In this document: positions 7,381-39,772 of the stretch, one piece after another
Position numbering within the stretch: the stretch's first letter is position 1
Layout of the letters: each line of letters starts with the position of its first letter
Origin: Pseudorhodoferax aquiterrae
Lineage (GTDB): Bacteria; Pseudomonadota; Gammaproteobacteria; Burkholderiales; Burkholderiaceae_C
Reading direction: 5' to 3'
DNA: 64,000 nt
Assembly: GCF_014652235.1 (NCBI RefSeq)
Contig: NZ_BMYK01000006.1
Location: 62,001-126,000, forward strand
Program-made: the position numbers and the translations under genes
Notes under the pieces: model-generated
Seen by the model: the letters and a program-made list of their open reading frames with translations, nothing else
The model's database searches: none
What the model was told of the DNA's origin: nothing

Positions 7381-8919
7381 ATGAGCCTGTCTTTGGTGCA
7401 AAGCCGCGTGCTGATGGGCCTGGATGCACCCGCCGTCACCGTCGAGGTGCATCTGGCCAACGGCCTGCCCAGCTTCACGCTGGTGGGTCTGGCGCACACC
7501 GAGGTCAAGGAGGCACGCGAGCGGGTGCGCTCGGCCATCCAGAACGCCGGGCTGGCGTTCCCGCACAACAAGAGGATCACGGTCAACCTGGCGCCGGCCG
7601 ATCTTCCGAAAGACTCCGGCCGCTTCGACCTGCCGATCGCGCTGGGCATCCTGGCAGCGAGCGGACAGGTCGACGCCGGGCGGCTGGCCGGCCACGAATT
7701 CGCCGGCGAGTTGTCGCTGTCCGGCGAACTGCGGCCCGTGCACGGCGCGCTGGCCCTGAGCCTGGCGCTGCACGACCGGGCCGAGCCCGTGACCCTGGTG
7801 CTGCCGCCGGGCAGCGCCGAAGAGGCGGCCCTGGTGCCGGACATGCGGGTGGTGCGCGCGCGGCATCTGCTGGATGTGGTGGCGGCGTTCGCGCCGGGCA
7901 ACGGCCCTGCGGCGGCGCCCGGCGCGGGCTGGGCCCGGCTGGAGCCCGGCCTGCCACCGGCCGCGCCAGCCGGCCTGGACCTGGCCGATGTCAAAGGGCA
8001 GTCCGCGGCCAAGCGGGCCCTGGAGATCGCGGCCGCCGGCGGCCACAGCGTGCTGCTGGTGGGCCCGCCGGGCAGCGGCAAATCCATGCTGGCCCAGCGC
8101 TTCGCCGACCTGCTGCCACCGATGCGCACCGAGGAGGCACTGCAAAGCGCCGCGGTCGCCAGCCTGGCGGGCCAGTTCTCGCTGGCGCAGTGGATGCGCC
8201 GGCCGACCCGCACGCCGCACCACACGGCGAGCGCCGTGGCCCTGGTGGGCGGCGGGTCGCCGCCGCGGCCGGGCGAGATCTCGCTGGCCCACCACGGCGT
8301 CCTGTTCCTCGACGAGCTCGTCGAGTTTCCGCGTGCCGCCCTCGAGGCCCTGCGCGAGCCGCTGGAGACGGGCCGCATCGCCATCGCCCGCGCGGCCCGG
8401 CGTGCCGAGTTTCCCGCGCGCTTCCTGCTCATCGCCGCCATGAACCCCTGCCCCTGCGGCTACTTCGGTGCCACGCACCGCGCCTGCCGCTGCAGCCCGG
8501 ACCAAGTGGTGCGCTACCAGTCCAAGCTCAGCGGCCCGCTGCTGGACCGGATCGACCTGCACCTGGAGATCGCCGCGCTGTCGCCCCAGGAACTGCTGGA
8601 CACGCCCGCGGCCGAAAGCACGGCCACCGTGCGCGCGCGCTGCAGCGCGGCCCGCGCGCTGGCCATGCAGCGCCAAGGCCAGTGCAACCAGGCTCTTGCC
8701 GGCCAGGAGCTGGAGCGCCATGCCCCGCGCACGGAGGAAGCGGCCCGCTTCCTGAACCATGCGGCGGCACGGCTGGGATGGTCGGCCCGCGGCATCCACC
8801 GCGCGCTGCGCGTGGCGCGCACGATCGCGGATCTGCAAGGCAGCGAACGGCTGGACACCAGCCACATCGCCGAGGCGGTGCAATACCGCCGGGCATTGCG
8901 CAGCCCTGGAACGGGCTAG
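7381..8919 (+). CDS. comM: YifB/ComM family Mg-chelatase-like AAA+ ATPase
   Basis: 512 residues from ATG 7381. The N-terminal LonC-like domain (MSLSLVQSRVLMGLDAPAV, then LANGLPSFTLVGLAHTEVKEARERV) is followed by an AAA+ Mg-chelatase module with Walker A VGPPGSGKS and Walker B LFLDELVEF, then PCPCGYFG and the sensor/lid helices. ComM is the branch-migration helicase that aids integration of incoming DNA in natural transformation. Divergent from the nitrogen operon. Longer upstream extensions lack family similarity, so this start is preferred. Confidence 0.94.
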   Translation: MSLSLVQSRVLMGLDAPAVTVEVHLANGLPSFTLVGLAHTEVKEARERVRSAIQNAGLAFPHNKRITVNLAPADLPKDSGRFDLPIALGILAASGQVDAGRLAGHEFAGELSLSGELRPVHGALALSLALHDRAEPVTLVLPPGSAEEAALVPDMRVVRARHLLDVVAAFAPGNGPAAAPGAGWARLEPGLPPAAPAGLDLADVKGQSAAKRALEIAAAGGHSVLLVGPPGSGKSMLAQRFADLLPPMRTEEALQSAAVASLAGQFSLAQWMRRPTRTPHHTASAVALVGGGSPPRPGEISLAHHGVLFLDELVEFPRAALEALREPLETGRIAIARAARRAEFPARFLLIAAMNPCPCGYFGATHRACRCSPDQVVRYQSKLSGPLLDRIDLHLEIAALSPQELLDTPAAESTATVRARCSAARALAMQRQGQCNQALAGQELERHAPRTEEAARFLNHAAARLGWSARGIHRALRVARTIADLQGSERLDTSHIAEAVQYRRALRSPGTG

Positions 8920-8926
8920 GCCCTGT

Positions 8927-9736
8927 TCAAACGCTCGCCGGCACGCGCTGCGGGAGTGGTGCCTGCTCCGGCGCCTGCTGCGCCAGGGCCTCGTGCAACA
9001 GGTAGCAGGTGTCCATCTGGGCATGCACCTCGTGCCAGATCGGGCGCACCATGGCACGCAGGCTGTTGTAGACCTGCGAGACGCGCATGAGCGAAGGGAT
9101 GCGGATGCCGCGGTGCTCGATCGGCGCGCCGACGGTCTCGATCTGCACCCCGCCACGCGCGAAATGCTTGGCCAGGCGTGGCTCCGTCAACGTGAAGAGG
9201 TATTCGACGCCGGCGCGCTGGGCCAACGCCACGGCACCGAAGTACAGGCTCACCGGGATGTTGGGAAAACGCGCTACCGGGTCGCCTGCGCTGTCGCGGG
9301 CAGACAAGGCCACCGGGCGGTGCAGTTCGCCGCGCCGACGGCGGAATTCACCCATGACGGCCAGCCGCGACACCTCGGCGATGCGTTCGCGCGGCAGCGC
9401 GGCCGGGTCGATGATGCGGCGGTCCAGCGTGTCGCGGCAGGACTGTTCGAACGGCAACGGGGCGTTGCGGTCCTGCGGGTCGGTCAACACCACGCGGGCA
9501 CAGCCCACCGGTCGGACATTGTCGTCATTGGTCCGCACAATGCAGTGCAGCGCATGCCTGTCGTAGGCGTCCACTTCGCGCTGCTCCGGTCGGACGGGTT
9601 CGAAACCCAGTTCCCGGGCATACACGTCGTGGCGCACAAAATACACTTCGTCTCTCGCCGCGGCGTCCAAAGCTGGTGCAATACGGAAATATTGCCCAAA
9701 ACGCTCACTGGCGGGCGAGGTGGCGAATGTTTTCAT
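8927..9736 (-). CDS. PEP-CTERM/exosortase-associated acyltransferase (FeeM/LuxI-like fold)
   Basis: 269 residues with the layout of the TIGR03694 acyltransferases: an N-terminal YFRIA...YFVRHDVYARELGFEP block, DAYDRHALHCIVRTN, a PVGCARVVL strand, the AEVSRLAVMGEFRRRRGE segment, and a GNAT/autoinducer-synthase-like core ending near TCYLLHEAL. These proteins usually occur with exosortase and PEP-CTERM genes in exopolysaccharide-producing Proteobacteria, and may acylate an amine with a fatty acyl chain. No exosortase or PEP-CTERM gene is in this window, so its substrate is unknown. Convergent with comM (7 bp between stops). Confidence 0.72.
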   Translation of the reverse strand: MKTFATSPASERFGQYFRIAPALDAAARDEVYFVRHDVYARELGFEPVRPEQREVDAYDRHALHCIVRTNDDNVRPVGCARVVLTDPQDRNAPLPFEQSCRDTLDRRIIDPAALPRERIAEVSRLAVMGEFRRRRGELHRPVALSARDSAGDPVARFPNIPVSLYFGAVALAQRAGVEYLFTLTEPRLAKHFARGGVQIETVGAPIEHRGIRIPSLMRVSQVYNSLRAMVRPIWHEVHAQMDTCYLLHEALAQQAPEQAPLPQRVPASV

Positions 9737-9931
9737 GACTTTTAAGTGATCTGGCGTTGCGCGACATGCTCAGCGGGTGTAGGTAGATGCTATTGGTTTT
9801 TGTAGGCCAACAGCGCTACAAAATGTCAGAGAACGTGAATAGTTCCCTTGACAAGCCTCGGATCACAACTTTTTTTTGTTCCGTTTTTGTTACGGGCCTG
9901 AAAAATCGCGCGCAGCGTCCCGGTCACGGAT

Positions 9932-9963
9932 AAAAAAAGGCCGGGCGTCCGAGACGCCCGGCC
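9932..9963 (-). terminator. intrinsic terminator of the glycine-zipper gene
   Basis: A perfect 11-bp stem (GGCCGGGCGTC and GACGCCCGGCC, loop CGA) followed on the minus strand by seven T residues. It lies 31 bp after the stop at 9995. The rest of 9737-9994 is A+T-richer upstream DNA of the acyltransferase, with no clear promoter that I can name. Confidence 0.88.
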
Positions 9964-9994
9964 GTTCTCCAGAACGAGGGACCGTGCCTTGCCG

Positions 9995-10654
9995 CTAGCC
10001 GTTCCAGGCCGTGGCACTGCCACGCAACCGGGCCGTGCCGTTCTGCACCACGACGGGGCTGCCCACCGCCACGGCTTGGGCTTGCTCGACGGTGCGCTCG
10101 CTGCCATCGTCCATGCGCACACGGACCGCATAGTGCGTGGTCTGGCGTACGCGCTTCTCGACCTCGTTGCCGGCAAAGCCCCCGCCCACGGCCCCCAGCA
10201 CGGTGGCCACGGCGCGGCCACTGCCGCCACCGATCTGGTTGCCCAGCACACCACCGACCACGCCGCCGGCCACGGCCCCCACGCCGCTGCCCTGGCCGGC
10301 GCGCTGCACGGCGGTCACGGAAACGACCGTGCCGCAGCTGTCGCAGCGCGCCACCGGCGCGGCGGCTGCGGGAGCCGCTGGCGCACGCACGACGGCCGGC
10401 GCGACGCGGGGCGCCGCCGGTGCCGTCGGTGCGCTCTGCGCCGCGGGCTTGGCACTTGCCGTGGGCGCGGCATCGAAGGGCACCAGGCCTGCGGCCTGGC
10501 CGGCGGTGGGCTCCGCCGCGCCGCGGGGCAACTGCGTGCCCAGCAGGGTGCCGCCCAGGCCGGCCACGGCGACGGCCAGTGCGCCGATCGCCAGCCACAG
10601 CGGCTTGTTGCCCGAACGGGCGGGAATCGAAGGGGACGTTTGGTGTTCTTGCAT
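9995..10654 (-). CDS. membrane-anchored glycine-zipper 2TM protein
   Basis: 219 residues from ATG 10654 (ribosome site GAGGAG). A cytoplasmic head of about 18 residues is followed by one membrane segment (LWLAIGALAVAVAGLGGTLLG), a long Ala/Pro-rich spacer, a CDSCGTV cysteine pair, and a glycine-zipper block (VGAVAGGVVGGVLGNQIGGGSG and VLGAVGGGFAGNEVEKR) of the Rick_17kDa_Anti/SlyB type. The C-terminal part (YAVRVRMDDGSERTVEQ) is a small beta domain typical of these envelope proteins. Likely an envelope or stress protein; the precise role is unknown. Confidence 0.75.
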   Translation of the reverse strand: MQEHQTSPSIPARSGNKPLWLAIGALAVAVAGLGGTLLGTQLPRGAAEPTAGQAAGLVPFDAAPTASAKPAAQSAPTAPAAPRVAPAVVRAPAAPAAAAPVARCDSCGTVVSVTAVQRAGQGSGVGAVAGGVVGGVLGNQIGGGSGRAVATVLGAVGGGFAGNEVEKRVRQTTHYAVRVRMDDGSERTVEQAQAVAVGSPVVVQNGTARLRGSATAWNG

Positions 10655-10723
10655 GGACACTCCTCGAAGCGGAGCGCAGGCGCGCTCCATGGATGCCAAG
10701 GCTATGCAACCCGCGTCGCGGCT

Positions 10724-25883: not shown

Positions 25884-26933
<1,050 letters not shown>

Positions 26934-27307
26934 AGGGGGAGATTTTAGAAAGGCCGCCAACCCACAAGACACGGCACCTGATGCCAGCAAGAAGTAGCCA
27001 GGGCAGGAAAGAGCGGACTTGCACATTTCGGCTGTCTGTGTCGTACGGAATAATCCAATGTTTTTGCGTCTCTCCTTGTGATCGAAGCCCACATTCCGCG
27101 GCCGCCTTGCCACATGAACAGGCCGCATTGCAGGGAAGCGGGCCAGGATCTGTTGGCCCACCTTGGCGACACGGCTCCCGTGACGCGCAGGGACCAGGTC
27201 AAGGACTTTTCAAAAACCGCCTTCTGGCCCCTGCGCGGCGACCCGGAGGAGGAACTGCAGGGATGGACGCCAGTGACGGTGGGCGCGAGCGCCGGAAGGA
27301 ACAAAGC
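26934..27307. other. 374-bp left boundary of the accessory cassette
   Basis: This gap separates metH (N-terminal half, minus) from the cassette (plus). It is A+T-richer than its left neighbour from about 26990 on (for example the ggaataatccaatgtttttgc stretch near 27047). No att-like repeat or integrase remnant is seen. A candidate small reading frame occupies its right part (see next entry). Confidence 0.5.
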
Positions 27308-27311
27308 ATGA
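27078..27311 (+). CDS. candidate small first gene of the cassette
   Basis: A 77-codon frame with GTG at 27078 (or ATG at 27114, 65 codons). It ends TGA at 27309-27311, so it overlaps the next gene's ATG as ATGA, the same junction style as the rest of the cassette. The product is polar and has no recognisable domain; the segment [23 protein letters not shown] looks protein-like. There is no good ribosome site before either start, so it may be chance. Confidence 0.28.
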
Positions 27312-27772
27312 GTGCAGTGGGAGCGGCTTCGGTCAGCTACTTCGAGTCGGCGCGTCGGCACTTCACGGATGCAGGCACCTTGCTGAGCAGCAGCAGGCTG
27401 GCAAACGCGGGGCAGCTCTTCGGCATTGCAGCCGAATGCGGCATCAAGGCCATCCTGGTCGCCAGCAAGGTACCCGTCGATCATGAAGGCTCCATCGGCC
27501 GGATGCAGGGCCAGAAAGGCAAAGGTTTCAAAGCTCATTGGCCGCAGTTGGGCCAGACGCTGATCGACCTTGCCGGAGCGATTCCCGACAGCCGAACAGC
27601 GACAACCTATCTGTCAACACTGTCTAACCTAGCGCACTTTTCAGATTGGCTGATCGACCACCGATACTGGCGCGATGCGGCTTTACCACTGACCTCAGTC
27701 GCGCACTGGCAGGTGGCTGCGGCCGAGGTGATGGCGGCATTGGACCAGGCTAAGGAAGATGGGATCCTGTGA
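27308..27772 (+). CDS. cassette gene A: HEPN-like helical protein
   Basis: 154 residues, ribosome site AAGGAAC before ATG 27308. All-helical prediction. The N-terminal SYFESARRHFTDAGTLLSSSRLANAGQLFGIAAECGIKAILVAS follows the HEPN pattern (helix, gap, then an A-E-x-x-x-K helix). The classical R-x4-6-H nuclease motif is not clear; the conserved-looking end is HFSDWLIDHRYWRD. It may therefore be a non-catalytic HEPN or a divergent one. It is co-translated with an ATPase (TGATG). Base composition is well below that of the flanks. Function unknown; a nuclease or effector role in a defence system is speculation. Confidence 0.68.
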   Translation: MSAVGAASVSYFESARRHFTDAGTLLSSSRLANAGQLFGIAAECGIKAILVASKVPVDHEGSIGRMQGQKGKGFKAHWPQLGQTLIDLAGAIPDSRTATTYLSTLSNLAHFSDWLIDHRYWRDAALPLTSVAHWQVAAAEVMAALDQAKEDGIL

Positions 27773-29112
27773 TGGCGACGATTCGATTTCATGACGCATT
27801 GCGCCAGGCCGCCCAAGCCTTGGCGCATCTGGAACTTCCGGCCGAACCGCCTGTGCGTGTGGTACGCGACCTGTACGGCCGTTTGCGCTTTGCGGTGGAC
27901 AGCGCCCAGGCCGACTACCCGGTGCAAGCGCGGGAACAATTGCAAAAGGCCCAAGCCGCTCTGGGGCCTTATGCCACCAGCGACGAACTGTTGTTTCGCG
28001 AAAGCTTCTCCTATCCGGACAAGTTTTTCTACCAACAGAACTGGCTGCAAACCATAGTGCCCATGGGGAGCAATGAGGACGGCGAACCTCTGCCCGCAAC
28101 GGAAGTTTTGTTGCTAGATCGAACGGTGACGGGCCACGATTGGCTGCAACCAGCGCAGACCAATGGCAGGCATGCGCATCGCGTCGTGTTCTTCGGTCTC
28201 AAAGGGGGCGTGGGTAGATCCACCGCGCTGTGCATGGTGGCGTGGGGCTTGGCCCGCCAAGGCAAGCGAGTCTTGCTAGTGGATTTCGATCTTGAATCGC
28301 CAGGACTGTCGGGGTTGATCTTGCCGACTGAGCGAGTTGCCGAGTACGGCGTGATGGACTGGTTGGTGGAAGACGCAGTCGGTCAGGGAGACACCGTCCT
28401 GCAGGGCATGGTGTCCGCAAGCCCCTTGGGCGAGACCACGCAAGGCGCCGTGCGCGTAGCTGCCGCGATGGGATCGCAGGAGAGCGACTACCTCGCCAAG
28501 CTGGCACGTGCCTATGCTGATGTGCCGTCGGCGCATGGACCACAACGCCTCGGCGAACGGCTGCGAAGGATGGTAGAGGCATTGGAAGTTCGCGAGCAGC
28601 CCGACGTGGTACTGATTGATAGCCGCGCGGGCCTGCACGACCTAGCGGCAGCCGCCATCACGGGCCTCGCAGACACGACCCTGCTGTTCGCTACGGACAG
28701 TGCGCAGACGTGGCAGGGCTATCGGCAACTTTTCGGTCATTGGCAGAAGCGGCTCAAAGTGGTGCGCAAGGTGCGGGAGAGTCTGGCCATCGTGCGAGCA
28801 CTGACGCCCAAGAGTGACCGTGAAGGAGGCGTGAAGCGCTTCCAACGCAAAGCGTATGAACTGTTCGCCGAGACGCTGTACGACGCGATTCCCATAGGCG
28901 TCGTGGAGTCGGAGGCCGACTACTTTCACCCGATCGAAACGGACGAAGCTGCCCCACACTTCCCCATTCTGGTTGACTGGGACGAGCGCTTTCAGGAGTT
29001 CGATCCTGGTTTGCGACCCGAACATGGCGGCGCAAGCGAAGCGCAAGTGGATGCAACCTTTGGGGCGCTGATTGAGTGGGTGTCCAAGCGCATCCAGGGA
29101 GATGACGCATGA
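27772..29112 (+). CDS. cassette gene B: KGGVGR-type ParA/MinD-like ATPase
   Basis: 446 residues from ATG 27772 (a GTG 3 bp earlier is possible). About 140 N-terminal residues of unknown fold precede a SIMIBI ATPase core: deviant Walker A FFGLKGGVGRST (about 141-152; Arg replaces the usual second Lys/Gly-Lys), A' motif VLLVDFDLESPGL (about 168-180), and Walker B/switch VVLIDSRAGLHD (about 280-291). The KGGVGR variant is known as an accessory-genome family with no established role. The C-terminal part ends AEYFHPIETDE-like and EWVSKRI. It overlaps gene C by 4 bp. It lacks a ParB partner, so plasmid partition is unlikely. Confidence 0.8.
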   Translation: MATIRFHDALRQAAQALAHLELPAEPPVRVVRDLYGRLRFAVDSAQADYPVQAREQLQKAQAALGPYATSDELLFRESFSYPDKFFYQQNWLQTIVPMGSNEDGEPLPATEVLLLDRTVTGHDWLQPAQTNGRHAHRVVFFGLKGGVGRSTALCMVAWGLARQGKRVLLVDFDLESPGLSGLILPTERVAEYGVMDWLVEDAVGQGDTVLQGMVSASPLGETTQGAVRVAAAMGSQESDYLAKLARAYADVPSAHGPQRLGERLRRMVEALEVREQPDVVLIDSRAGLHDLAAAAITGLADTTLLFATDSAQTWQGYRQLFGHWQKRLKVVRKVRESLAIVRALTPKSDREGGVKRFQRKAYELFAETLYDAIPIGVVESEADYFHPIETDEAAPHFPILVDWDERFQEFDPGLRPEHGGASEAQVDATFGALIEWVSKRIQGDDA

Positions 29113-30557
29113 CGACAGCCGTGCAGGCGATCCGCAGTGGGATCAGGCAAGCTGCAGCTGTCTTGGCGCAGGATCAAGCCACATCCAGCAGACCCGAAGC
29201 TTTCACCTACGTCCCCCCGACGCATGCCAGAGCGTTGGATCTAGACGCGACGTTGATCGAGGGAATCCGGGGCGCAGGTAAGTCGTTTTGGTTCTCGCTG
29301 CTGGCGTCCCCAAAACATCTTTCGTTTGTACGGGCCAGCTTTCCGGAGGCTCGGCTGCCGCAAAGCGTGCAGGTGGCGCAAGGATTTGGCATGGGCTTGT
29401 CAATCGCGCAAGCGCCGGACGCGGACACCTTAGCCGCCCTGATGGACAACAACTTTCGCGAAAGATCCATCTGGCGCGCGGTGATCGCGCATCACGCTCA
29501 AGTGGACGGCCCTTTTGCAAAGTTGAAGGAGTGGACGGCTCGGGTGCACTGGGTGCAGCAGAACCCAGAAGCATTTGCTCGTGGGCTGGAAGCAGCTGAT
29601 CAACGGTTGGGCGCGAAGGGTGAAACGCTTCTAGTACTGTTCGATGCTCTGGACCGCATGGCAGATGACTGGCAGCACATTAACAAGCTGGCCAAAGGTT
29701 TGTTACAGGAGGCGCTGAACATGCGCTCTATGCGTTCGATCCGCTGCAAGGTCTTTGTCCGCCCCGATTTGCTGCAAGACCCCGCCGTAACGAGTTTTGC
29801 GGACTATTCCAAATTACTAGCAACCAAAGCGTCTCTCGTTTGGCACCGGGCAGATCTCTATGCACTGCTGTACCAGTGTCTTGGCAATGCACCGGTAAGT
29901 CGCAAGCATTTCGCAGCGTGGGCAGAGCGCGGAAAGTCGACTGCCGCAGCAGGTGACTGGGCGGTTCCGTCTAACCTTCGCAAGGATGAAGACCGTCAGG
30001 AAGCGTTGTTTGAAAGGATTGCTGGCAAAGCTATGGGCAGTAGCGTGAAGCGCGGCAAACCTTACACCTGGCTCGTCAATCATCTGCAGGATGGTCTCAA
30101 CCAAGTCAGCCCACGCAGTTTTCTGGCCGCGTTGGGTAAGGCGGCGTCCGAAACCGAGGAGGACTACGCGCTTCCGCTGGACTATCGAGGTATTCAACGC
30201 GGCGTGCAGGAGGCCTCACAGATTCGCGTGCAAGAAATCACCGAGGACTACCCATGGGTGGGGCGAGTCATGGAACCACTGCGCGGCAACCTGACAGTCC
30301 CTTGCACTGCTGCTGAAATTGAAAAGCTTTGGAAAGCGAATCAAACGTTGGACCAGCTAGAAGCCCTCCTCAAGAGGGGGAAAGCAGCGGTGAACCTTCC
30401 TCCGCAGAATCTAGAACAAGGCCCTTCCGGCATCTTGTTGGATCTTGAAGCCCTCGGAATGGTGCAGCGCATGGAGGGAAAACGTGTCCAAATGCCGGAT
30501 GTGTTCCGTGTTGCGTTCGGCTTTGGGCGACGCGGAGGCGTCACGCCTTTGAAGTGA
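29109..30557 (+). CDS. cassette gene C: STAND-like P-loop ATPase with winged-helix C terminus
   Basis: 482 residues. Walker A EGIRGAGKSFW (about 51-61) and Walker B LLVLFDALDRMA (about 174-185), the latter in the hydrophobic-DxLD form of STAND/KAP-like NTPases. The C-terminal end GILLDLEALGMVQRMEGKRVQMPDVFRVAFGF looks like a winged helix. Unlike its neighbours it uses many A+T-ending codons: I counted 31 G+C in the 60 bases at 29701-29760 against 50 in 60 at 31141-31200. Its stop overlaps the recC GTG (GTGA). Probably a sensor or regulatory ATPase; function unknown. Confidence 0.75.
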   Translation: MTTAVQAIRSGIRQAAAVLAQDQATSSRPEAFTYVPPTHARALDLDATLIEGIRGAGKSFWFSLLASPKHLSFVRASFPEARLPQSVQVAQGFGMGLSIAQAPDADTLAALMDNNFRERSIWRAVIAHHAQVDGPFAKLKEWTARVHWVQQNPEAFARGLEAADQRLGAKGETLLVLFDALDRMADDWQHINKLAKGLLQEALNMRSMRSIRCKVFVRPDLLQDPAVTSFADYSKLLATKASLVWHRADLYALLYQCLGNAPVSRKHFAAWAERGKSTAAAGDWAVPSNLRKDEDRQEALFERIAGKAMGSSVKRGKPYTWLVNHLQDGLNQVSPRSFLAALGKAASETEEDYALPLDYRGIQRGVQEASQIRVQEITEDYPWVGRVMEPLRGNLTVPCTAAEIEKLWKANQTLDQLEALLKRGKAAVNLPPQNLEQGPSGILLDLEALGMVQRMEGKRVQMPDVFRVAFGFGRRGGVTPLK

Positions 30558-30563
30558 CGCCTC
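30535..30563 (+). promoter_or_regulatory. hairpin over the recC ribosome site and start codon
   Basis: GAGGCGTCAC (30535-30544) and GTGACGCCTC (30554-30563) are perfect 10-bp inverted arms with a 9-nt loop. The 5' arm contains the GGAGG ribosome site and the 3' arm begins with the recC GTG. Folded, the mRNA would hide both; ribosomes finishing gene C would open it. No T tract follows, so it is not a terminator. Confidence 0.7.
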
Positions 30564-33500
30564 TCCTCCAACCCGGCCTCATGGTCCTGCACGGCAACCG
30601 GCCGGAGGACCTGCGCCAGCTGCTCGTGGCCTGGCTGCGCCGCCATCCGCTGGCGCCGCTGGAGAACGAGGTCGTGCTGGTGCAGAGCAACGGCATCGCG
30701 CAGTGGCTCAAGCTCGCGCTGGCGGCCGACGCGGACGACCCCGGGGGCGGCGGCCTGGGCATCACGGCCGCCACGCAACTGCAGCTGCCCGCGCAGTTCC
30801 TGTGGCGCGCCTACCGCGCCGTGCTGGGCCCGGGCACTGTGCCCGAGCGCTCGCCGCTGGACGAGGCACCACTGACCTGGCGCCTGATGCGCCTGCTGCC
30901 CGGGCTGCTGGACCAGGACGATTTTGCGCCGCTCGCCCGCTTCCTGGCCGACGACGCCGACCTGCGCAAGCGCCACCAGCTGGCCCAGCGCCTGGCCGAC
31001 CTGTTCGACCAGTACCAGGTCTACCGCGCCGACTGGCTGGCCGACTGGGCCGATGGTCGCGACGTGGTGCGCAATTTGCGCCGCGGCGAACACGCCCTGC
31101 CCGCCGACCAGCGCTGGCAGGCCCTGCTCTGGCGCGCGCTGGTCGCCGACGCGGGCGCCGCCGGCCAAGCCGGCAGCCGCGCCGGCGTGCACCAGCGCTT
31201 CATCGCGGCTCTCGAAGGACACAGCGGCCCGGCCGGCCTGCCGCGCCGCGTGGTGGTGTTCGGCATCTCCACCCTGCCCGCGCAGACGCTGCAGGCCCTG
31301 GCCGCGATCGCGGGCGTGGCCCAGGTCATGCTGTTCGTGCACAACCCCTGCCGCCACCACTGGACCGACATCGTGGCCGACCAGGACCTGCTGCGCGGCC
31401 CCTACCGGCGCCAGGCCCGGCGCGCCGGCATGCCGGCCCAGCTCGACGAGGCCGCGCTGCACCAGCATGCCCACCCGCTGCTGGCGGCCTGGGGCAAGCA
31501 GGGGCGCGACTACCTGCACCTGATCGACAGCTTCGACCAGCCGGACCAGTACCGCGCCGCCTGGAGCGGCATCGGCAGCGGCCGCATCGACCTGTTCAGC
31601 GAGGACGCCGCCCCCGCCGGCCTGCTGCAGCAGCTGCAGGACGACATCCTGGACCTGCGCCCGCTGGCCGAAACGCGCGCGCGCTGGCCCGCGGTCGATG
31701 TGGCGCAGGACCGCTCGCTGCGCTTTCACAGCACGCACTCGGCCCAGCGTGAGGTGGAGGTGCTGCACGACCAGCTGCTGGCCCGCTTCGACGCCGACCC
31801 CACGCTGCAGCCGCGCGACGTGATCGTGATGCTGCCCGACGTGGATGCGTACGCGCCGCACATCGAGGCCGTCTTCGGCCGGCTGCCGCGCAGCGACGCC
31901 CGCCACATTCCCTACACCGTGGCCGACCAGGGCCGGCGCGGCCAGGAGCCGCTGCTGGTGGCGCTGGAACTGCTGCTGCAGCTGCCCGACAGCCGCTTTA
32001 CCGCCAGCGACGTGCTGGATCTGCTGGAGGTCGGCGCATTGCGCGTGCGTTTCGGCCTCGATGACGAAGCCCTGCCCCAGCTCAAGCGCTGGATCGAAGG
32101 CGCGGGCGTGCGCTGGGGGCTGGACGCCGCCCAGCGCGCGCAGCAATCGCTGGGCGCGGCCGGCGAGGTCAACAGCTGGCGCTTCGGGTTGCAGCGCATG
32201 CTGCTGGGCTTCGCGGTCGGCGAGGGGGAGGCCTTCGAAGGCATCGCGCCCTTCGACGAGATCGGCGGGCTCGACGCCGCCGCGCTGGGCCCGCTGGCCG
32301 CGCTGCTGCGCGCGCTCGGCGAGACGCTGGCCACCCTGACGCAGCCGGCGCCGCCGCTGCAATGGGCCGAACGCCTGCGCGCGCTGCTGCAGGGCTTCTT
32401 CGCGCCCGTGGACACACGCGAGCAGCTGCGCGTGCAGCAGCTGCTGCAGGGGCTGGACCAGTGGCTGGACGAGTGCGCGGACGCCGGCTTTGCCGATCCG
32501 CTGCCGCTGGCCGTGGTGCGCGAGCGCTGGCTGGCCGTGCTCGAGCAGCAGGGGCTGCAGCAGCGCTTCATGACGGGCGGCGTGAGCTTTTGCACGCTGA
32601 TGCCCATGCGCGCCATCCCGTTCCGCGTGGTCTGCCTGCTGGGCATGAACGACGGCGACTTCCCGCGTCCCATGGTGCGCGCCGACTTCGACCTCATGCA
32701 GAGCGACTGGCGCCCCGGCGACCGCTCGCGCCGCGACGACGACCGCTACCTGCTGCTCGAAGCCCTGCTGTCGGCGCGCGAGCAGCTCTACATCAGCTGG
32801 GTGGGCCGCAACGTGCGCGACCACAGCGCGCGCGCGCCCAGCGTGCTGGTCGGCCAGCTGCGCGACCACCTCGCGGCCGGCTGGCAGGCCGCAGGCGGCG
32901 CCGACCTGCTCCAGGCCCTGACCACCGAGCACCCGCTGCAGCCCTTCAGTCCGCGCTACTTCGCGCCCGGTGCGCCGGCTGCGCCGGCCATCGACGGGCT
33001 CTACAGCTACGGCCGCGAATGGCAGGCCGCCCATGCCGAGACCCCCGCCGCCAGCGGCCCCGGCACGCCGCTGCCGCCCTGGCAGCCCGAGAACGCCCAG
33101 CCGCTGCGCCCGCTGGCCGACTTCCTGGCCCAGCCCGTGGAGGCCTTCTTCCGCCAGCGCCTGCAGACCGGCCTGGCGCTGCACGCCGAGGACACGCAGG
33201 ACGACGAGGCCTTCGGCCTGGACAGCCTACAGCAATGGACGCTGGAGCGCGACCTGCGCGCCGCGCTGCAGCCCTGGTGCGACGCCCAGCCCAGCCCCGC
33301 CGCCGCACGCGCGGGACTGGCCGAGGCGCTGGCCGAGCAGACCACCGCGCTCGCGCGCGCCGGCCAGCTGCCGCTGCAGGCCTTCGGACCCATCGCCGCA
33401 AGCGCGCTGGCCCAGCCGCTGCTGCGCACGCTGGGCCACTACCTGGACGCGCTCGAAGGCTGGCCAGCGCTGGAAGACCAGCGCCACGCGCTGCGCTGGG

Positions 33501-34072
33501 CCGATCCGGCCACGGCCATCGCCTTCGACGACCCGCTGCCGCAGCGCCGCCTGCCTGCCGATGCCGAGCAGTTGCCGGCCTGCCTGGTGCTGGCCAACGG
33601 CCGGCTGCACAAGGGCCCCACGCTGGCCTGGCACCACATCGTGCGGCACTGGCCCCAGCACCTGGCGCTGCAGATCGCGGCCGGCCCCACGCTCACGCTG
33701 CTGGCCAGCGAGTCGGGCCTGCTGCGCCTGCCCGCACTCGATGCCGAGGCCGCCACGGCCACGCTGTCCGCGCTCGTGCAGGCCTGGGCCGCCGGCCTGG
33801 CCGAGCCGCTGCCGGTGGCCTGCAAGACCGCGTTCGCGGTGCTGGCCGGCGAACTGCGCGCCGCGCAGGCGCTTTACGAGGGCGGCCAGCATGCCAGCGG
33901 AGAAGGCCAGCGCCCGGCGCTCGCACGCGTGTTCGCCGATTTCGACGCGCTGCAGGCCGCGCGAACGGCCGATGGCCGTGGCCTGCGCGACTGGAGCGAG
34001 GCCTTGTACGGGCCACTGTGGCGCGCGCTGGGCGGGGCACACCGCGGGCAGCCGGCAGAGGACGCGGCATGA
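30554..34072 (+). CDS. recC: exodeoxyribonuclease V subunit gamma (RecC)
   Basis: 1172 residues, slightly longer than E. coli RecC. N terminus MVLHGNRPEDLRQLLVAWL and NEVVLVQSNGIAQWLKLALA are RecC hallmarks; GMNDGDFPRP and DDDRYLLLEALLSAREQLYISW are conserved in the UvrD-like second half. RecC lacks a functional helicase motif and reads Chi in the RecBCD complex. GTG 30554 is preferred because LQPGL before the internal ATG (30581) looks native; that ATG has no ribosome site. The start lies inside the cassette's last codons, so recC translation is tied to the cassette. Confidence 0.95.
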   Translation: MTPLLQPGLMVLHGNRPEDLRQLLVAWLRRHPLAPLENEVVLVQSNGIAQWLKLALAADADDPGGGGLGITAATQLQLPAQFLWRAYRAVLGPGTVPERSPLDEAPLTWRLMRLLPGLLDQDDFAPLARFLADDADLRKRHQLAQRLADLFDQYQVYRADWLADWADGRDVVRNLRRGEHALPADQRWQALLWRALVADAGAAGQAGSRAGVHQRFIAALEGHSGPAGLPRRVVVFGISTLPAQTLQALAAIAGVAQVMLFVHNPCRHHWTDIVADQDLLRGPYRRQARRAGMPAQLDEAALHQHAHPLLAAWGKQGRDYLHLIDSFDQPDQYRAAWSGIGSGRIDLFSEDAAPAGLLQQLQDDILDLRPLAETRARWPAVDVAQDRSLRFHSTHSAQREVEVLHDQLLARFDADPTLQPRDVIVMLPDVDAYAPHIEAVFGRLPRSDARHIPYTVADQGRRGQEPLLVALELLLQLPDSRFTASDVLDLLEVGALRVRFGLDDEALPQLKRWIEGAGVRWGLDAAQRAQQSLGAAGEVNSWRFGLQRMLLGFAVGEGEAFEGIAPFDEIGGLDAAALGPLAALLRALGETLATLTQPAPPLQWAERLRALLQGFFAPVDTREQLRVQQLLQGLDQWLDECADAGFADPLPLAVVRERWLAVLEQQGLQQRFMTGGVSFCTLMPMRAIPFRVVCLLGMNDGDFPRPMVRADFDLMQSDWRPGDRSRRDDDRYLLLEALLSAREQLYISWVGRNVRDHSARAPSVLVGQLRDHLAAGWQAAGGADLLQALTTEHPLQPFSPRYFAPGAPAAPAIDGLYSYGREWQAAHAETPAASGPGTPLPPWQPENAQPLRPLADFLAQPVEAFFRQRLQTGLALHAEDTQDDEAFGLDSLQQWTLERDLRAALQPWCDAQPSPAAARAGLAEALAEQTTALARAGQLPLQAFGPIAASALAQPLLRTLGHYLDALEGWPALEDQRHALRWADPATAIAFDDPLPQRRLPADAEQLPACLVLANGRLHKGPTLAWHHIVRHWPQHLALQIAAGPTLTLLASESGLLRLPALDAEAATATLSALVQAWAAGLAEPLPVACKTAFAVLAGELRAAQALYEGGQHASGEGQRPALARVFADFDALQAARTADGRGLRDWSEALYGPLWRALGGAHRGQPAEDAA

Positions 34073-37000
34073 GCGCCGTTCAAGCCCTCGACCCCCTGCA
34101 CTTCCCGCTGCACGGCCAGCGCCTGATCGAGGCCAGCGCCGGCACCGGCAAGACCTGGACCATCGCGCTGCTGTACCTGCGCTTGGTGCTGGGCCATGGC
34201 GCGGATGGCACAGCCTTCGCGCGCGCGCTGACGCCGCCCGAGATCCTGGTCGTGACCTTCACCGAGGCCGCCACGCAGGAACTGCGCGAGCGCATCCGCG
34301 CGCGGCTGGACGAGGCCGCGCGCGTGTTCGCGGGCGAGGCCGAGGCCCCGCCCGGCGATGTGCTGGACGCGTTGCGTGCCGACTACCCGCCCGCGCAATG
34401 GCCGGCCTGCGCGCACCGCCTGCGCGTGGCTGCGCAGTGGATGGACGAAGCCGCCGTGGCCACCATCCACGGCTGGGCCTGGCGCATGCTGCGCGAGCAC
34501 GCCTTCGACAGCGGCAGCCTGTTCCGCCAGACCCTGCAGACCGACCTGGCCGCGCTGCAGCAGCGCGTGCTGCAGGACCATTGGCGTCGGCACTACTACC
34601 CGCTCGCGGCGCCGGCCGCGCAGATGCTGCTGCAGTGCTTCGCCCACCCCGAGGCGCTGTGGAAAGCGGTCGAGCCCCTGCTGCGCCGCGAGGATGCGCT
34701 GCTGCAACTGCAAGGCAGCGCGCTGCCCGCGTCCGACGATGCCCTGGCCGCCCTGCACGCCGCAGGCGCCACGCGCCAGCGCGCCGATGCGCTGGAACAA
34801 ACGGCGCGCGCCGCCTGGGCCGCCGCGCGCGAAGACCTCGAACGCCTGTGGCATGCCGCCCGCCCCCACCTGAGCGGCACCAGCTACCGCAACAAGGACG
34901 ACGAGGCCGTCTTCGCCGGCTGGCTGCAGGCCCTGGTCGACTGGAGCCAGGGCGCGCCCGCGCCGAAGAACATCGCCCTGTTCGGTCTGGCCGGTGCCAG
35001 GCTCAAGAAGAACCAGCAGCTGCCCGAGCACCCCGCGCTGCACGCCATCGACGCATGGCTGCATGCCAGCGAGGGCATTGACATCGACGAACTGCGCGCC
35101 CGCCTGGCCGCGCAGGCCGCCCATGCGCTGCGCGCGGCCCTGGCCGCCGAGAAGCAGCGCCGGGCCGAACTCGGCTTCGACGACCTGCTGCAGCAGCTGG
35201 ACCGCGCGCTGCAGGGCGAAGGCGGCGCGGCGCTGGCCGCGCGCATCCGCGCGCAGTTCCCGCTCGCGCTGATCGACGAGTTCCAGGACACGGACCCGGT
35301 GCAGTACCGCATCTTCCGCCGCATCTACGCCGTGGAGGGCTGCGGCCTGGTCATGATCGGCGACCCCAAGCAGGCCATCTACGGCTTTCGCGGCGCCGAC
35401 ATCCGCACCTACCTGCGCGCGAGCCGCGACACCGGCGATGCCCTCTACGCGCTGGACACCAACCACCGTTCCACCGAAGCCGTGGTGCGCGCCGTCAACC
35501 ACCTGTTCCTGCACGCCGAGCAGCAGCCGCGCGCGGCCTTCCGCTTCGCGCAGGACGCAGGCAACCCGGTGCCCTTCGTGCCCGTGCACGCCCGCGGCCG
35601 GCCCGAATGGCTGCAGATCGACGGCGCGCCGGCCAAGGCGCTCACGCTGTGGTCGCTGGAGCCGCCGGCGGACGCCGACAAGCCGCGCGTGGGCAGCGCC
35701 GAATACCGCCAGCGCATGGCCGAGACCAGCGCGAGCGCCGTCGTGCACTGGCTGCGCGGCGCGGATGCGGGCCACACCGGCTTCGTGCGCGGCGACCAAC
35801 TGCAGCCGCTGCGCCCGGCCGACATCGCCGTGCTCGTGCGCAGCGGCAGCGAGGCCGATGCCGTGCGTGCCGCGCTCGCGGCGCGCGGGCTGCGCAGCGT
35901 CTACCTGTCCGACCGCGCCTCGGTGTTCGCCACGCCCGAGGCGCAGGACCTGCTGCACTGGCTGCGCGCCTGCGCCGCCCCGGCCGACGAGGCCCTGCTG
36001 CGCAGCGCCCTGGCCACCCGCACCATCGACATGCCGCTGGCCGAGCTGGCCCGCCTGCGCGAGGACGAGCTGGCCTGGGAAGCCCTGGCGCTGCGCTTTC
36101 GCGCGCTGCGCGAGCTGTGGCAGCGCCACGGCGTGCTGCCCATGCTGCACCAGCTGCTGCACGACTTCGGCCTGCCCGCGCGCTGGCTCGCCGAGCCCGG
36201 TGGCGAGCGCCGGCTGACCAATGTGCTGCACCTGGCGGAATGGCTGCAGCGCCGCGCCGTGGAACTCGACGGCGAACACGCGCTGCTGCGTGCGCTGGCC
36301 GAGCGCCTGGCCCATCCCGAGGGCGAGGAGGACATCCTGCGCCTGGAGAGCGATGCCGCGCTGATCAAGGTCGTCACCATCCACAAGTCCAAGGGCCTGG
36401 AGTACCCGCTGGTGCTGCTGCCCTTCATCAGCGCCTGGCGCGAGACGAAGAGCGGCAAGCAGGAGACGCTGGGCTTCCACGACACCACGGCCGATGCGCG
36501 TGTGCTCGAGCTGGACGGCCAGTACACCCAGGCCCGGGCCCTCGCGGAGGAAGAGCGGCTGGCCGAGGACCTGCGCCTGTTGTACGTGGCGCTCACGCGC
36601 GCGCGCCACGGCCTGTGGCTGGGCGTGGCGCCGCTGGCCCCGGGCAACGCCGGCAAGCCGCAATTGCACCGCAGCGCGCTGGGCCATGTGCTGTCGGGCG
36701 GCGCGCCCATCGACGACCTGGCCAGCTACCGCGCCCAGCTGCAGTCCCTGGCCGCAGGCTGCGACGACATCGCGCTGGAACCCGCACCCCCACCCGACGA
36801 CGCCACCTGGCAGGCCGCCGCACCACCGCCCGTGGGCCCGGCACGCCTGCCACAGCGCCAGGGCCATGCGCCCTGGTGGATCGCGAGCTATTCGGCGCTG
36901 GTGCAGCAGCTCGGTGCGGCAGCCGCCGAACCGGAGGACGCGCGCCAGGACCAGGCCATGGAGGAGGCCGAGCCCGGCGAGGACGCCGAGAGCCCGCGGC

Positions 37001-37746
37001 CACCTGCCGCCGGCAGCTGGCACGCCTTCCCGCGCGGCGCCGAGCCCGGCAGCTTCCTGCACGGCCTGCTGGAATGGTGCGCGCAGCAAGGCTTCGCCCG
37101 GGTCGTGGCGCAGCCGCAGGCGCTGCGCGACCTTGTCGCACGCCGCTGCGCCGTGCGCGGCTGGGAGGCCTGGATCGACCCGCTGTGCGACTGGGTGCCG
37201 CGCTGGCTGCAGCTGCCGCTCGCCCTGCCCGGCCACGCCACCCCCGTGGCGCTGGACGGCCTGGCCCAGTACCAGACCGAGCTGGAGTTCTGGTTCCCCA
37301 TCCACCGCGCCGACACGCGCGCCATCGACGCGCTGGTCACGGCCCACACCTTCGACGCCGCGCCGCGCCCGGCCCTGGCCGGCACGCGGCTGGCCGGCAT
37401 GCTCAAGGGCTTCATGGACCTGGTGTTCGAGCACGAGGGCCGCTACTGGGTGGCCGACTACAAGTCCAACTGGCTCGGCCCCGACGCGCGCGCCTACGAC
37501 GCCGCCGCCATGCAGCAGGCGCTGCTCACGCACCGCTACGACGTACAGGTGCTGCTCTACGTGTTCGCGCTGCACCGGCTGCTCGGCGCGCGGCTGCCCG
37601 ACTACGACTACGACCGCCATGTGGGCGGCGCGCTGTACCTGTTCCTGCGCGGCGCCGAAGCCGACACGCAGGGCGTGTTCGCGACGAAGCCGCCGCGGGC
37701 GCTGATCGAAGCGCTCGACACCCTGTTCCGCCATGACCCAGCCTGA
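34069..37746 (+). CDS. recB: exodeoxyribonuclease V subunit beta (RecB)
   Basis: 1225 residues from ATG 34069, overlapping recC by 4 bp. Walker A IEASAGTGKTWTIALLYLRL (about 20-39), Walker B ALIDEFQDTDPVQYRIF, motif III GDPKQAIYGFRGADI, motif V VTIHKSKGLEYPLV, motif VI LRLLYVALTRAR. The C-terminal nuclease domain is intact: GSFLHGLLEW, GMLKGFMDLVFEHEGRYWVADYKSNW (about 1110-1135). RecB is the 3'-5' helicase and the only nuclease of RecBCD. Complete and apparently functional. Confidence 0.96.
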   Translation: MSAVQALDPLHFPLHGQRLIEASAGTGKTWTIALLYLRLVLGHGADGTAFARALTPPEILVVTFTEAATQELRERIRARLDEAARVFAGEAEAPPGDVLDALRADYPPAQWPACAHRLRVAAQWMDEAAVATIHGWAWRMLREHAFDSGSLFRQTLQTDLAALQQRVLQDHWRRHYYPLAAPAAQMLLQCFAHPEALWKAVEPLLRREDALLQLQGSALPASDDALAALHAAGATRQRADALEQTARAAWAAAREDLERLWHAARPHLSGTSYRNKDDEAVFAGWLQALVDWSQGAPAPKNIALFGLAGARLKKNQQLPEHPALHAIDAWLHASEGIDIDELRARLAAQAAHALRAALAAEKQRRAELGFDDLLQQLDRALQGEGGAALAARIRAQFPLALIDEFQDTDPVQYRIFRRIYAVEGCGLVMIGDPKQAIYGFRGADIRTYLRASRDTGDALYALDTNHRSTEAVVRAVNHLFLHAEQQPRAAFRFAQDAGNPVPFVPVHARGRPEWLQIDGAPAKALTLWSLEPPADADKPRVGSAEYRQRMAETSASAVVHWLRGADAGHTGFVRGDQLQPLRPADIAVLVRSGSEADAVRAALAARGLRSVYLSDRASVFATPEAQDLLHWLRACAAPADEALLRSALATRTIDMPLAELARLREDELAWEALALRFRALRELWQRHGVLPMLHQLLHDFGLPARWLAEPGGERRLTNVLHLAEWLQRRAVELDGEHALLRALAERLAHPEGEEDILRLESDAALIKVVTIHKSKGLEYPLVLLPFISAWRETKSGKQETLGFHDTTADARVLELDGQYTQARALAEEERLAEDLRLLYVALTRARHGLWLGVAPLAPGNAGKPQLHRSALGHVLSGGAPIDDLASYRAQLQSLAAGCDDIALEPAPPPDDATWQAAAPPPVGPARLPQRQGHAPWWIASYSALVQQLGAAAAEPEDARQDQAMEEAEPGEDAESPRPPAAGSWHAFPRGAEPGSFLHGLLEWCAQQGFARVVAQPQALRDLVARRCAVRGWEAWIDPLCDWVPRWLQLPLALPGHATPVALDGLAQYQTELEFWFPIHRADTRAIDALVTAHTFDAAPRPALAGTRLAGMLKGFMDLVFEHEGRYWVADYKSNWLGPDARAYDAAAMQQALLTHRYDVQVLLYVFALHRLLGARLPDYDYDRHVGGALYLFLRGAEADTQGVFATKPPRALIEALDTLFRHDPA

Positions 37747-39772
37747 CCTGTTCGACGCCCCCGCCCCGCCGCTGGACGACTGCGCCACGCTGCTGGCCGA
37801 CCTCGGCGAATGGGTGGAGCATGGCTGGCTGCGCGAGCTGGACCGCAGCTTCGCGCTGTTCCTGCTGGAGCTCGACCCCGGTGCCGGCGCCCCGCTGCTG
37901 CTGGCCGCCGCGCTGGCCAGCCACCAGCTGGGCCGCGGCCATGTCTGCCTGGACCTGCAGGCCGCACTGGCCGACAGCAGCACCAGCCTCTCGCTGCCGC
38001 CCGCCCACGCACCCGACGCGCCGCTGCAGCGCACGCCCAGCCAGTGGCTGCAGGCGCTGCGGCTGGACGCCTGGTGCGCCGCGCTGCGCGCCAGCCGGCT
38101 CTGCGAGGCCGGCCCCGGCAACGCGCCGCTGGTGTTGCAGGGTCCGCGCCTGTACCTGCGCCGTTACTGGCAGCACGAGCGCGAGGTGCGTGCCCTGGTC
38201 GGCGCGCGGCTGGCGCCCGAGCCGGTGGCCCCGGCCGCGCAGATCCGGCCCGTGCTCGACGCGCTGTTCACGGCACCGGCCCCGGACTGGCAGAAGCTGG
38301 CCTGCGCGCTGGCCCTGCGCCAGCGCTTCGCCATCGTCACGGGCGGCCCCGGCACCGGCAAGACCACCACCGTCGTGCGCCTGCTCGCGCTGCTGCAGTC
38401 CATGGCGCTGCAGGGCGGCGGCGAGCCGCTGCGCATCCGCCTGGCCGCGCCCACCGGCAAGGCCGCGGCGCGGCTGGCCGAATCCATCCGCGGCGCGCTG
38501 GACCGTCTGCCCTGGGACGCGCTGCCGCATGGCGAGGCGTTGCGCCCCCACGTGCCCAGCGCCGCCACCACGCTGCACCGGCTGCTGGGCCCCCAGCCCG
38601 AGAGCCGGCATTTCCGCCACCACGCGGGCAACCCGCTCGCGCTGGACGTGCTGGTCGTCGACGAAGCCTCCATGGTCGACCTCGAAATGATGGCCCGACT
38701 GCTGCAGGCGCTGCCGCCCAGCGCGCGCCTGGTGTTGCTGGGCGACAAGGACCAGCTGGCCTCGGTGGAGGCCGGCGCCGTGCTCGGTGAGCTGTGCAGC
38801 CGCGCGCAGGAAGGCCACTACGACGCCGCCACCGCGCAATGGCTGCAGGAGGCCGCCGGCCAACAGCCGCCGCCAGCGCTGCAGGACGCCGCCGGCCAGC
38901 CGCTGGACCAGGCGATCGCCATGCTGCGCGTGAGCCACCGCTTCACGGCCGACAGCGGCATCGGCCAGCTGGCCCAGGCCGTCAACGCGGGCGACGGCCG
39001 CACCGCCCAGGCCCTGTGGCGCGCCGGGCTGGACGACCTGCGCAGCTGCAGACTGAGCCAGCCACCCGCGCTGCTCGCGCAAGATGCGAAGCTGCGCGCG
39101 CTGGTGCTGGCCGAGCGCGCCGCGCCCTACGGCCACGCGCATTACCTGCGCCGCATGCACGCCACGCGCCCGGCCGACGATGCCGCGCCCGCGGCCTGGG
39201 ATGCCTGGGCGGGAGATTTGCTGCAGGCGCTGGGGCGCTTCCAGCTGCTCTGCGCGCTGCGCGAAGGTCCCTGGGGTGTCACGGGGCTCAACGCCACCGT
39301 GGCCGAACTGCTGCGTGAGGCCGGCCTGCTGCAGGGCACGCAGGGCTGGTTCGCGGGCCGGCCCGTGCTCGTCACGCGCAACGACTACGGCCTGTCGCTC
39401 ATGAACGGCGACGTGGGCCTCACGCTGGACCTGCCTGCGCCCGAGCCGGGTGCCGCCCCGGTGCGCCGCGTGGCCTTCCCGGCCGGCGACGGCAGCGGCG
39501 CCGTGCGCTGGGTGCTGCCGGCCCGGCTGCAGGCGGTGGAGACCGTGTTCGCGATGACGGTGCACAAGTCGCAGGGCTCGGAATTCGAGCACGCCGCGCT
39601 CGTGCTGCCCGACCAGGGCAGCCCGGTGCTCACGCGCGAGCTGGTCTACACCGGCATCACGCGGGCCAAGCGCTGGTTCACGCTGGTGGGTTCTGCCCGC
39701 GCGCATGGCGCGGTGCTGAACGAGGCCATCGGCCGGCGTGTGCTGCGCGCCAGCGGCCTCATGGCCGGGTGA
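37733..39772 (+). CDS. recD: exodeoxyribonuclease V subunit alpha (RecD)
   Basis: 679 residues, overlapping recB by 14 bp. Walker A VTGGPGTGKTTTVVRLLALL (about 203-222), LAAPTGKAAARLAESI, Walker B VLVVDEASMVDLEMMARLL, and near the end AMTVHKSQGSEFEHAALVLPD and YTGITRAKRW (SF1B motifs). RecD is the 5'-3' helicase. The recCBD gene order on one transcript is typical of betaproteobacteria, without ptrA between. Confidence 0.95.
   Translation: MTQPDLFDAPAPPLDDCATLLADLGEWVEHGWLRELDRSFALFLLELDPGAGAPLLLAAALASHQLGRGHVCLDLQAALADSSTSLSLPPAHAPDAPLQRTPSQWLQALRLDAWCAALRASRLCEAGPGNAPLVLQGPRLYLRRYWQHEREVRALVGARLAPEPVAPAAQIRPVLDALFTAPAPDWQKLACALALRQRFAIVTGGPGTGKTTTVVRLLALLQSMALQGGGEPLRIRLAAPTGKAAARLAESIRGALDRLPWDALPHGEALRPHVPSAATTLHRLLGPQPESRHFRHHAGNPLALDVLVVDEASMVDLEMMARLLQALPPSARLVLLGDKDQLASVEAGAVLGELCSRAQEGHYDAATAQWLQEAAGQQPPPALQDAAGQPLDQAIAMLRVSHRFTADSGIGQLAQAVNAGDGRTAQALWRAGLDDLRSCRLSQPPALLAQDAKLRALVLAERAAPYGHAHYLRRMHATRPADDAAPAAWDAWAGDLLQALGRFQLLCALREGPWGVTGLNATVAELLREAGLLQGTQGWFAGRPVLVTRNDYGLSLMNGDVGLTLDLPAPEPGAAPVRRVAFPAGDGSGAVRWVLPARLQAVETVFAMTVHKSQGSEFEHAALVLPDQGSPVLTRELVYTGITRAKRWFTLVGSARAHGAVLNEAIGRRVLRASGLMAG

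Follow-up and report, generated by a model that had tools for sequence, protein, structure and literature searches.

PrrC is a single protein with its own ATPase and an Rx4-6H site, and its gene is an RNase gene within a restriction operon, that of EcoprrI. Here we examine three overlapping genes, A, B and C (together ABC), that stand between a metH-type gene and recBCD in Pseudorhodoferax aquiterrae (assembly GCF_014652235.1). The DNA analysed, hereafter the window, is the 64,000-nucleotide (nt) stretch 62,001-126,000 of contig NZ_BMYK01000006.1; coordinates are positions in the window, and related loci and genomes carry labels made of L or G and a number. The explanation we favour, with moderate confidence, is that ABC is a PDC-M28 cassette, probably of the abortive-infection (Abi) type, that was captured from an operon of the type 2 bacteriophage exclusion system (BREX-2) and now heads the recBCD operon as an orphan backup. 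The likeness to PrrC is one of anatomy: L093, a type I restriction-modification (RM) locus, has the similar order hsdR-hsdS-ABC-hsdM. Unlike PrrC, the cassette comprises three proteins and has an AbiV-type site.

Other described systems share particular features with the cassette. The available portion of PMC12409349 links PrrC with EcoprrI and Stp, PARIS with Ocr, and the retrons Ec48 and Se72 with RecBCD inhibitors, and also covers Ronin. The retrons resemble the cassette in being backup immunity linked to RecBCD, but none of the three cassette proteins matches a retron profile, and the cassette's link to RecBCD is one of position alone. PARIS (AriA/AriB) couples an ATPase sensor to an RNA-cutting effector and serves as a backup in BREX operons, where the accessible part of PMC12839542 places both HEPN and PARIS-like backups. 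PARIS uses an OLD-type ATPase of the ATP-binding cassette class and a TOPRIM nuclease, whereas our cassette has ParA-like and STAND-like ATPases and a HEPN protein; the main text of PMC12839542 contains none of the terms 'RecBCD', 'MinD', 'SIMIBI' and 'three-gene', and its accessible part describes no ABC module. AbiV, as characterised in the available portion of PMC3710099, is typically without the canonical HEPN histidine and retains the arginine, and a different conserved histidine lies between its helices 2 and 3. These features recur in A, but a table in the same portion lists AbiV without operon partners, whereas the cassette has three genes. That portion also describes dyads in which a HEPN/MAE_18760 gene adjoins a ParA/Soj-like ATPase gene, as A adjoins B; their HEPN family is a different one, and neither a third gene nor operon embedding is described for them there.

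Family and domain content of the cassette

Profile matches place the set in an existing catalogue, where it is a bare candidate defence system. The A, B and C profiles of the PADLOC candidate PDC-M28 match the three proteins over nearly their full length and in the same gene order, with E-values of 6.8e-36, 1.3e-148 and 5.6e-175, respectively. An earlier note on this DNA, made from the sequence alone, had not recognised the gene set as a named defence system; the defence-profile search shows it to be a listed candidate. Neither the name 'PDC-M28' nor the term 'KGGVGR' was found in the main texts of the literature searched, and no description of the recC position, the pglX stub or the empty site reported below was found there. 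The same note read A as HEPN-like, B as a KGGVGR ATPase and C as STAND-like, and all three assignments hold, that of C being weak for the window protein taken alone.

Gene A (27308..27772, + strand) encodes 154 residues. Among 48 A proteins, E43, K47, R119 and Y120 never vary, and 47 of them have H77. The canonical Rx4-6H motif is lacking: a histidine at that spacing after R119 occurs in 3 of the 48 and is absent from the window protein. The AbiV-type residues (retained arginine, alternative histidine and Ex3K) are all present, with the placement of the helices inferred from the alignment. At E <= 1, Pfam HEPN_AbiV weakly matches 10 of 23 members of the A family (best 2.4e-4) and Pfam HEPN matches 3 of the 23 (best 0.032).

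Gene B (27772..29112, + strand; 446 residues) encodes a ParA/MinD-like ATPase with a KGGVGR variant of the P-loop. It scores 199.7 bits against NF047398 (KGGVGR ATPase), well beyond the 90-bit threshold, and in an alignment of 50 rows K144, G145, G146, G148 and R149 are present throughout and V147 in 49. Gene C (29109..30557, + strand; 482 residues) encodes a STAND/AAA_16-like ATPase with the motifs GxRGxGKS and FDALDR, and its Walker A and B motifs are conserved. The window protein is weakly NACHT-like (13.1 bits versus a cut-off of 26.7). The likeness is somewhat clearer among 11 relatives, seven of which match AAA_16 (best 9.4e-5) and six NACHT (best 0.0061) at E <= 0.1. Fusions of C to a phosphoesterase-NACHT region occur in L112, as identified with Pfam, and in L113-L116, as identified by similarity.

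Two observations on gene fusion may be recorded here. In L112-L116, C runs into a calcineurin-like phosphoesterase and NACHT within frames of 1328-1774 residues, with similarity to PDC-S60 in L112. In L122 (8791-11538, minus strand; oriented coordinates 7964-10711), B and C form one 915-residue frame.

The three genes are intact open reading frames, all on the + strand, and the reading frames agree with the overlaps that the earlier note had described: the A stop and the B ATG share TGATG, and the C ATG and the B stop share ATGA. The cassette is also lower in G+C, as that note had it from two hand-counted lines, although the contrast is smaller than those lines implied. A, B and C have 60.4, 61.3 and 57.5% G+C versus 74-76% in recC, recB and recD, and at third codon positions 62-70% versus 93-94%.

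The empty site and the tail of a BREX-2 gene

The acquisition of the cassette ahead of recBCD, also proposed earlier, is borne out by related genomes. In four of five congeners (G002-G005), metH and recC adjoin and the site between them is empty. Homology between the window and these four ends at 26951-26952, just beyond the metH-type gene (25884..26933, - strand; methionine synthase N-terminal domain, 2.6e-113), which lies upstream of the cassette and diverges from it, and restarts at 30565. Of the native leader of the empty-site congeners, 63-66 bp are absent from the window, where the cassette replaces them. In the fifth congener (G001), the compared stretch shows no metH-like DNA adjoining recC, and a different contig carries a divergent ABC.

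The right-hand junction bears on the start of recC. All four empty-site congeners share a recC start that corresponds to ATG 30581, 23 nt beyond the C stop. The window also has GTG 30554, which lies 27 nt upstream in the recC frame and overlaps the C stop (GTGA), as the earlier note had observed; the overlap is present, but this GTG is not the conserved start. Since the conserved start is ATG 30581 and the common block begins at 30565, the GTG lies on the insert side and its overlap with the C stop arose at the junction (30554..30580, + strand). It could still serve as a recC start, adding nine residues. From the conserved ATG, recC runs to 34072 (30581..34072, + strand; TIGR01450, 1134 bits), followed on the same strand by recB (34069..37746) and recD (37733..39772), which were identified with phmmer against PDB (RecB, 3.7e-238; RecD, 1e-130).

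Immediately before A lies the 3' end of a BREX-2 pglX gene, reduced to a stub (27176..27311, + strand). A segment of 72 nt is 76% identical to pglX of L003 (blastn 3.2e-8, against 128 loci), and the encoded peptide keeps the motif PV..QxKDFxKTxFWxLRG while lacking about 100 codons. The TGA of the stub overlaps the ATG of A, as the stop of intact pglX does in L003, L004, L029 and L100. None of 2000 shuffled versions of the stub scored as high, and the best of the 109 random window pieces that gave any match reached 23.9 bits against 28.1 for the stub.

The phylogeny of the cassette points in the same direction. Its closest relatives in the trees, L003 and L004, both lie inside BREX-2 operons with the order pglX-A-B-C-fic-(further genes)-pglY, and the window cassette groups with these two embedded copies with Shimodaira-Hasegawa-like approximate likelihood-ratio (SH-aLRT) support of 98 in the C tree and 100/99 in the B+C tree. 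Two further members of the clade retain intact ABC beside decayed pglX: L092 has a pglX remnant (2.5e-6) and a fic remnant downstream, and L006 has a weaker pglX remnant (0.004). The window itself carries the pglX stub alone rather than a pglX, pglY and pglZ set, and PglX and PglZ had no match elsewhere in the genome, whereas three of three BREX-2 genomes were matched in the same searches (one PglZ match among these controls fell below the curated cut-off). Because the stub ends on the start of A and the nearest relatives lie between pglX and pglY, we conclude from these sequence comparisons that ABC came from a BREX-2 operon and that its frames stayed open after the loss of BREX. The family as a whole often rides inside another operon; in the clade of the window cassette that operon is mostly BREX-2, with the cassette placed between pglX and pglY.

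Some features around these loci were noted separately. In L003, a Fic-domain gene (L003:9455-10543) overlaps the C stop inside BREX-2, and such a gene also follows C in L004. In L006, C stands near a contig end and is directly followed there by GroEL-like fragments in shifted frames, recognised by eye. The left part of the window insert (26953..27175, + strand; 223 bp) has no clear source by sequence comparison: tblastx gave many matches, which we attribute to GC-rich chance similarity and did not use, and the genome contains 26953-27307 just once. An integrase-borne island was rejected, as neither an integrase among the identified neighbour genes nor a target duplication in the alignment was seen (no further search was made), and an assembly join was set aside, the insert being internal to a 323-kb contig as judged from the assembly.

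Relatives of the cassette and competing explanations

Homologues of C are sparse. With matches of E 1e-20 or better counted, and the window's own genome included each time, the tally is 7 of 399 genomes at family level, 8 of 369 at class level, 10 of 399 at order level and 20 of 398 at phylum level. Six weak partial matches (E 1e-6 to 1e-14; G128, G314, G411, G469, G658 and G659) were dropped, and a fragment in G1237 is within the phylum count but outside the locus set. That set, of 57 loci, is a convenience sample whose stretches extend up to about 10 kb to each side, some of them stopping where a contig ends; L005 was omitted because it shares a contig with L092, and L029 and L084 have identical C. 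Genes A and B could both be placed beside C in 52 of the 57 loci, and B and C are separate genes in 54, with gaps of at most 114 nt in all of these; gene starts were called coarsely, and the gap values of L034, L089, L106, L122 and L150 are untrustworthy. At looser limits, C homologues appear in 20 plasmid records, six of which were inspected, and in nine viral contigs, the latter with an alignment query (a single-protein query gave none); phage records gave no match to C at 1e-5. Eight of the nine viral contigs, two of them near copies, hold A, B and C together. The earlier note had asked whether the three genes co-occur and had named their scattering in relatives, beforehand, as the finding that would undo its proposal; the set is instead kept at 52 of 57 loci and in eight of nine viral contigs. 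With three proteins matching one catalogued system and a recurrent A-B-C order, the cassette is beyond chance.

A number of points weigh against the explanation that we favour. For the proteins, (i) the window A gives no Pfam match by itself, and the HEPN assignment rests on weak matches of its relatives together with motifs; (ii) a tyrosine follows R119, where canonical HEPNs typically have a polar residue according to the available portion of PMC3710099; and (iii) neither A nor C has a convincing relative in PDB by sequence. For the origin, the alignment of the stub tail is short, the C and B+C trees both carry long-branch warnings for distant rows, L092 and L006 lie on contigs of metagenome-assembled genomes, and neither L082 nor L099, both from the wider clade, shows a remnant of pglX. 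The genome-wide PglX search missed the window's own stub, so other short pglX remnants would escape it. The ratio of nonsynonymous to synonymous substitution rates (dN/dS), 0.08-0.09 for A and B versus L003 and L004, also spans the time before capture, and dS is saturated for C versus both loci. Context labels, which are a hand summary, could be given to 26 of the 57 loci; the other 31 have no labelled host system, their neighbours being unannotated, distant or ordinary. Finally, promoter scans of 26900-30700 and of the native L124 leader gave no promoter-like match, so the joint transcript with recC that the earlier note suggested, which is plausible, is read from the layout. Terminator-like sites in such scans number three, a chance level. 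A hairpin considered at the C/recC joint was rejected (z -1.97, 6 of 200 shuffles folding equally well, bases not kept in L003).

There is a substantial possibility, though we lean away from it, that ABC is purely a hitchhiker: a self-contained defence module that needs read-through, lands at any operon joint and uses RecBCD as a promoter donor alone, with RecBCD serving neither as sensor nor as target. Adjacency to recC occurs at one of the 57 loci within the stretches examined, and elsewhere ABC has tight, co-directional housekeeping neighbours, lying between gatA and gatB of a translation operon in L085 (gaps of 8 and -4 nt), 41 nt downstream of guaA in L119 and 43 nt downstream of a glmS-like gene in L097. 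Plasmid copies occur without BREX or repair neighbours, and the ABC sets of the eight viral contigs have no reference defence or repair genes adjoining. Against random landing, operons for DNA processing recur. Methylase-based defence operons hold 11 of the 57 loci (BREX-2 seven, DUF1156-methylase/PLD-helicase two, Hma one and type I RM one), and repair or recombination genes adjoin five (yebC|ruvC three, uvrD|rmuC one and recC one), in a non-random sample with no background rate. In L008 and L104 the cassette tightly follows a restriction-type gene. The case of yebC|ruvC, in the operon of the Holliday-junction resolvase, stands out. One genus has ABC in 3 of 23 genomes, always in this slot (L101, L102 and L151), and the yebC and ruvC DNA of L102 and L151 is 93-94% identical up to the gene ends. 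As the flanks are near-identical yet the cassette proteins share 41-45% identity, different cassettes have evidently been exchanged, gene-exactly, in the same slot. The recurrence of DNA-processing operons and this exchange suggest more than random landing, but a site hotspot would also explain it. In the wider family of this genus, ABC is present in 4 of 117 genomes, the fourth (G1580, L150) having no RuvC in the stretch.

The same contexts admit a bolder reading, which we place on the unlikely side: PDC-M28 might be a portable guard, inserted with gene-exact joints into whichever operon encodes the machine it watches, and might sense the blockade of that machine by phage. Its clients would include BREX-2, type I RM, Hma, the DUF1156-methyltransferase/PLD-helicase pair, RuvC, UvrD/RmuC and RecBCD. 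The window copy would then have been re-homed from BREX-2 to RecBCD, and the change of client caught with the gene tail of the old client still attached.

A narrower proposal builds on the earlier note's idea of a system that guards RecBCD: the cassette would detect phage inhibitors of RecBCD, Gam for example, and fire A in response. We consider it decidedly unlikely. The position before recBCD, the related cassettes at yebC|ruvC and uvrD|rmuC and the precedents of PrrC, PARIS, Ronin and the RecBCD-linked retrons (in the portion of PMC12409349 cited above) are in its favour, but recC adjacency at 1 of 57 loci makes it one possibility among several. The nearest relatives lie in BREX-2, cassettes on plasmids and in viral contigs lack RecBCD neighbours, the housekeeping placements, gatA|gatB above all, weigh against such a guard, and the sequence shows no trace of retargeting.

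A toxin-antitoxin or plasmid-stability module, with a HEPN toxin and a ParA-like antitoxin kept by addiction, seems improbable. HEPN and ParA/Soj dyads have been proposed as such pairs in the portion of PMC3710099 cited above, and C homologues occur on the 20 plasmid records; however, the dyad's MAE_18760 family differs from A, the third, STAND-like gene and the C-NACHT fusions point to a sensor, and cassettes are placed inside defence operons. Highly improbable, finally, is a subunit that works only with BREX-2 and survives here as a dying remnant: seven loci are BREX-2-embedded (two with the identical C noted above) and decayed pglX adjoins orphan cassettes, but the frames and motifs are intact, dN/dS is low for A and B and 50 of the 57 loci lack BREX-2 neighbours within the stretches examined.

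A possible mechanism and its meaning

We return to the captured, backup cassette as the preferred explanation. The ATPase anatomy, the AbiV-type HEPN and the neighbouring systems speak for a backup, Abi-like immune module, and the following scheme would accommodate them. The cassette was taken from BREX-2 together with a degraded pglX tail, the rest of BREX being lost, and in replacing the 63-66 bp of old recC leader it became the front of the recBCD operon. C, as a STAND-like ATPase, may act as the sensor and switch, and B, the ParA-like KGGVGR ATPase, may be its nucleotide-dependent partner and restrain A. Once the switch fires, A would act as the effector, cutting or binding RNA and halting translation. 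The position in the operon may supply transcription without a promoter of the cassette's own. It may also couple the dose of the cassette, or what triggers it, to the DNA-processing machine encoded next to it, in the way that PrrC is coupled to EcoprrI.

Four points are new here: the capture of the cassette from BREX-2, with the gene tail that came along; its placement before recBCD, with the empty sites of congeners as controls; an AbiV-type site in A; and the repeated embedding in operons, including gene-exact cassette exchange at ruvC. If PDC-M28 is a true guard, the neighbours of each copy would reveal the machine that it watches, and copies swapped among BREX-2, RuvC and RecBCD hosts would directly test the choice of client. 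Even if it is a hitchhiker, the locus shows how an immune module can exit a large defence operon, supplant the leader of a DNA-repair operon and remain intact.

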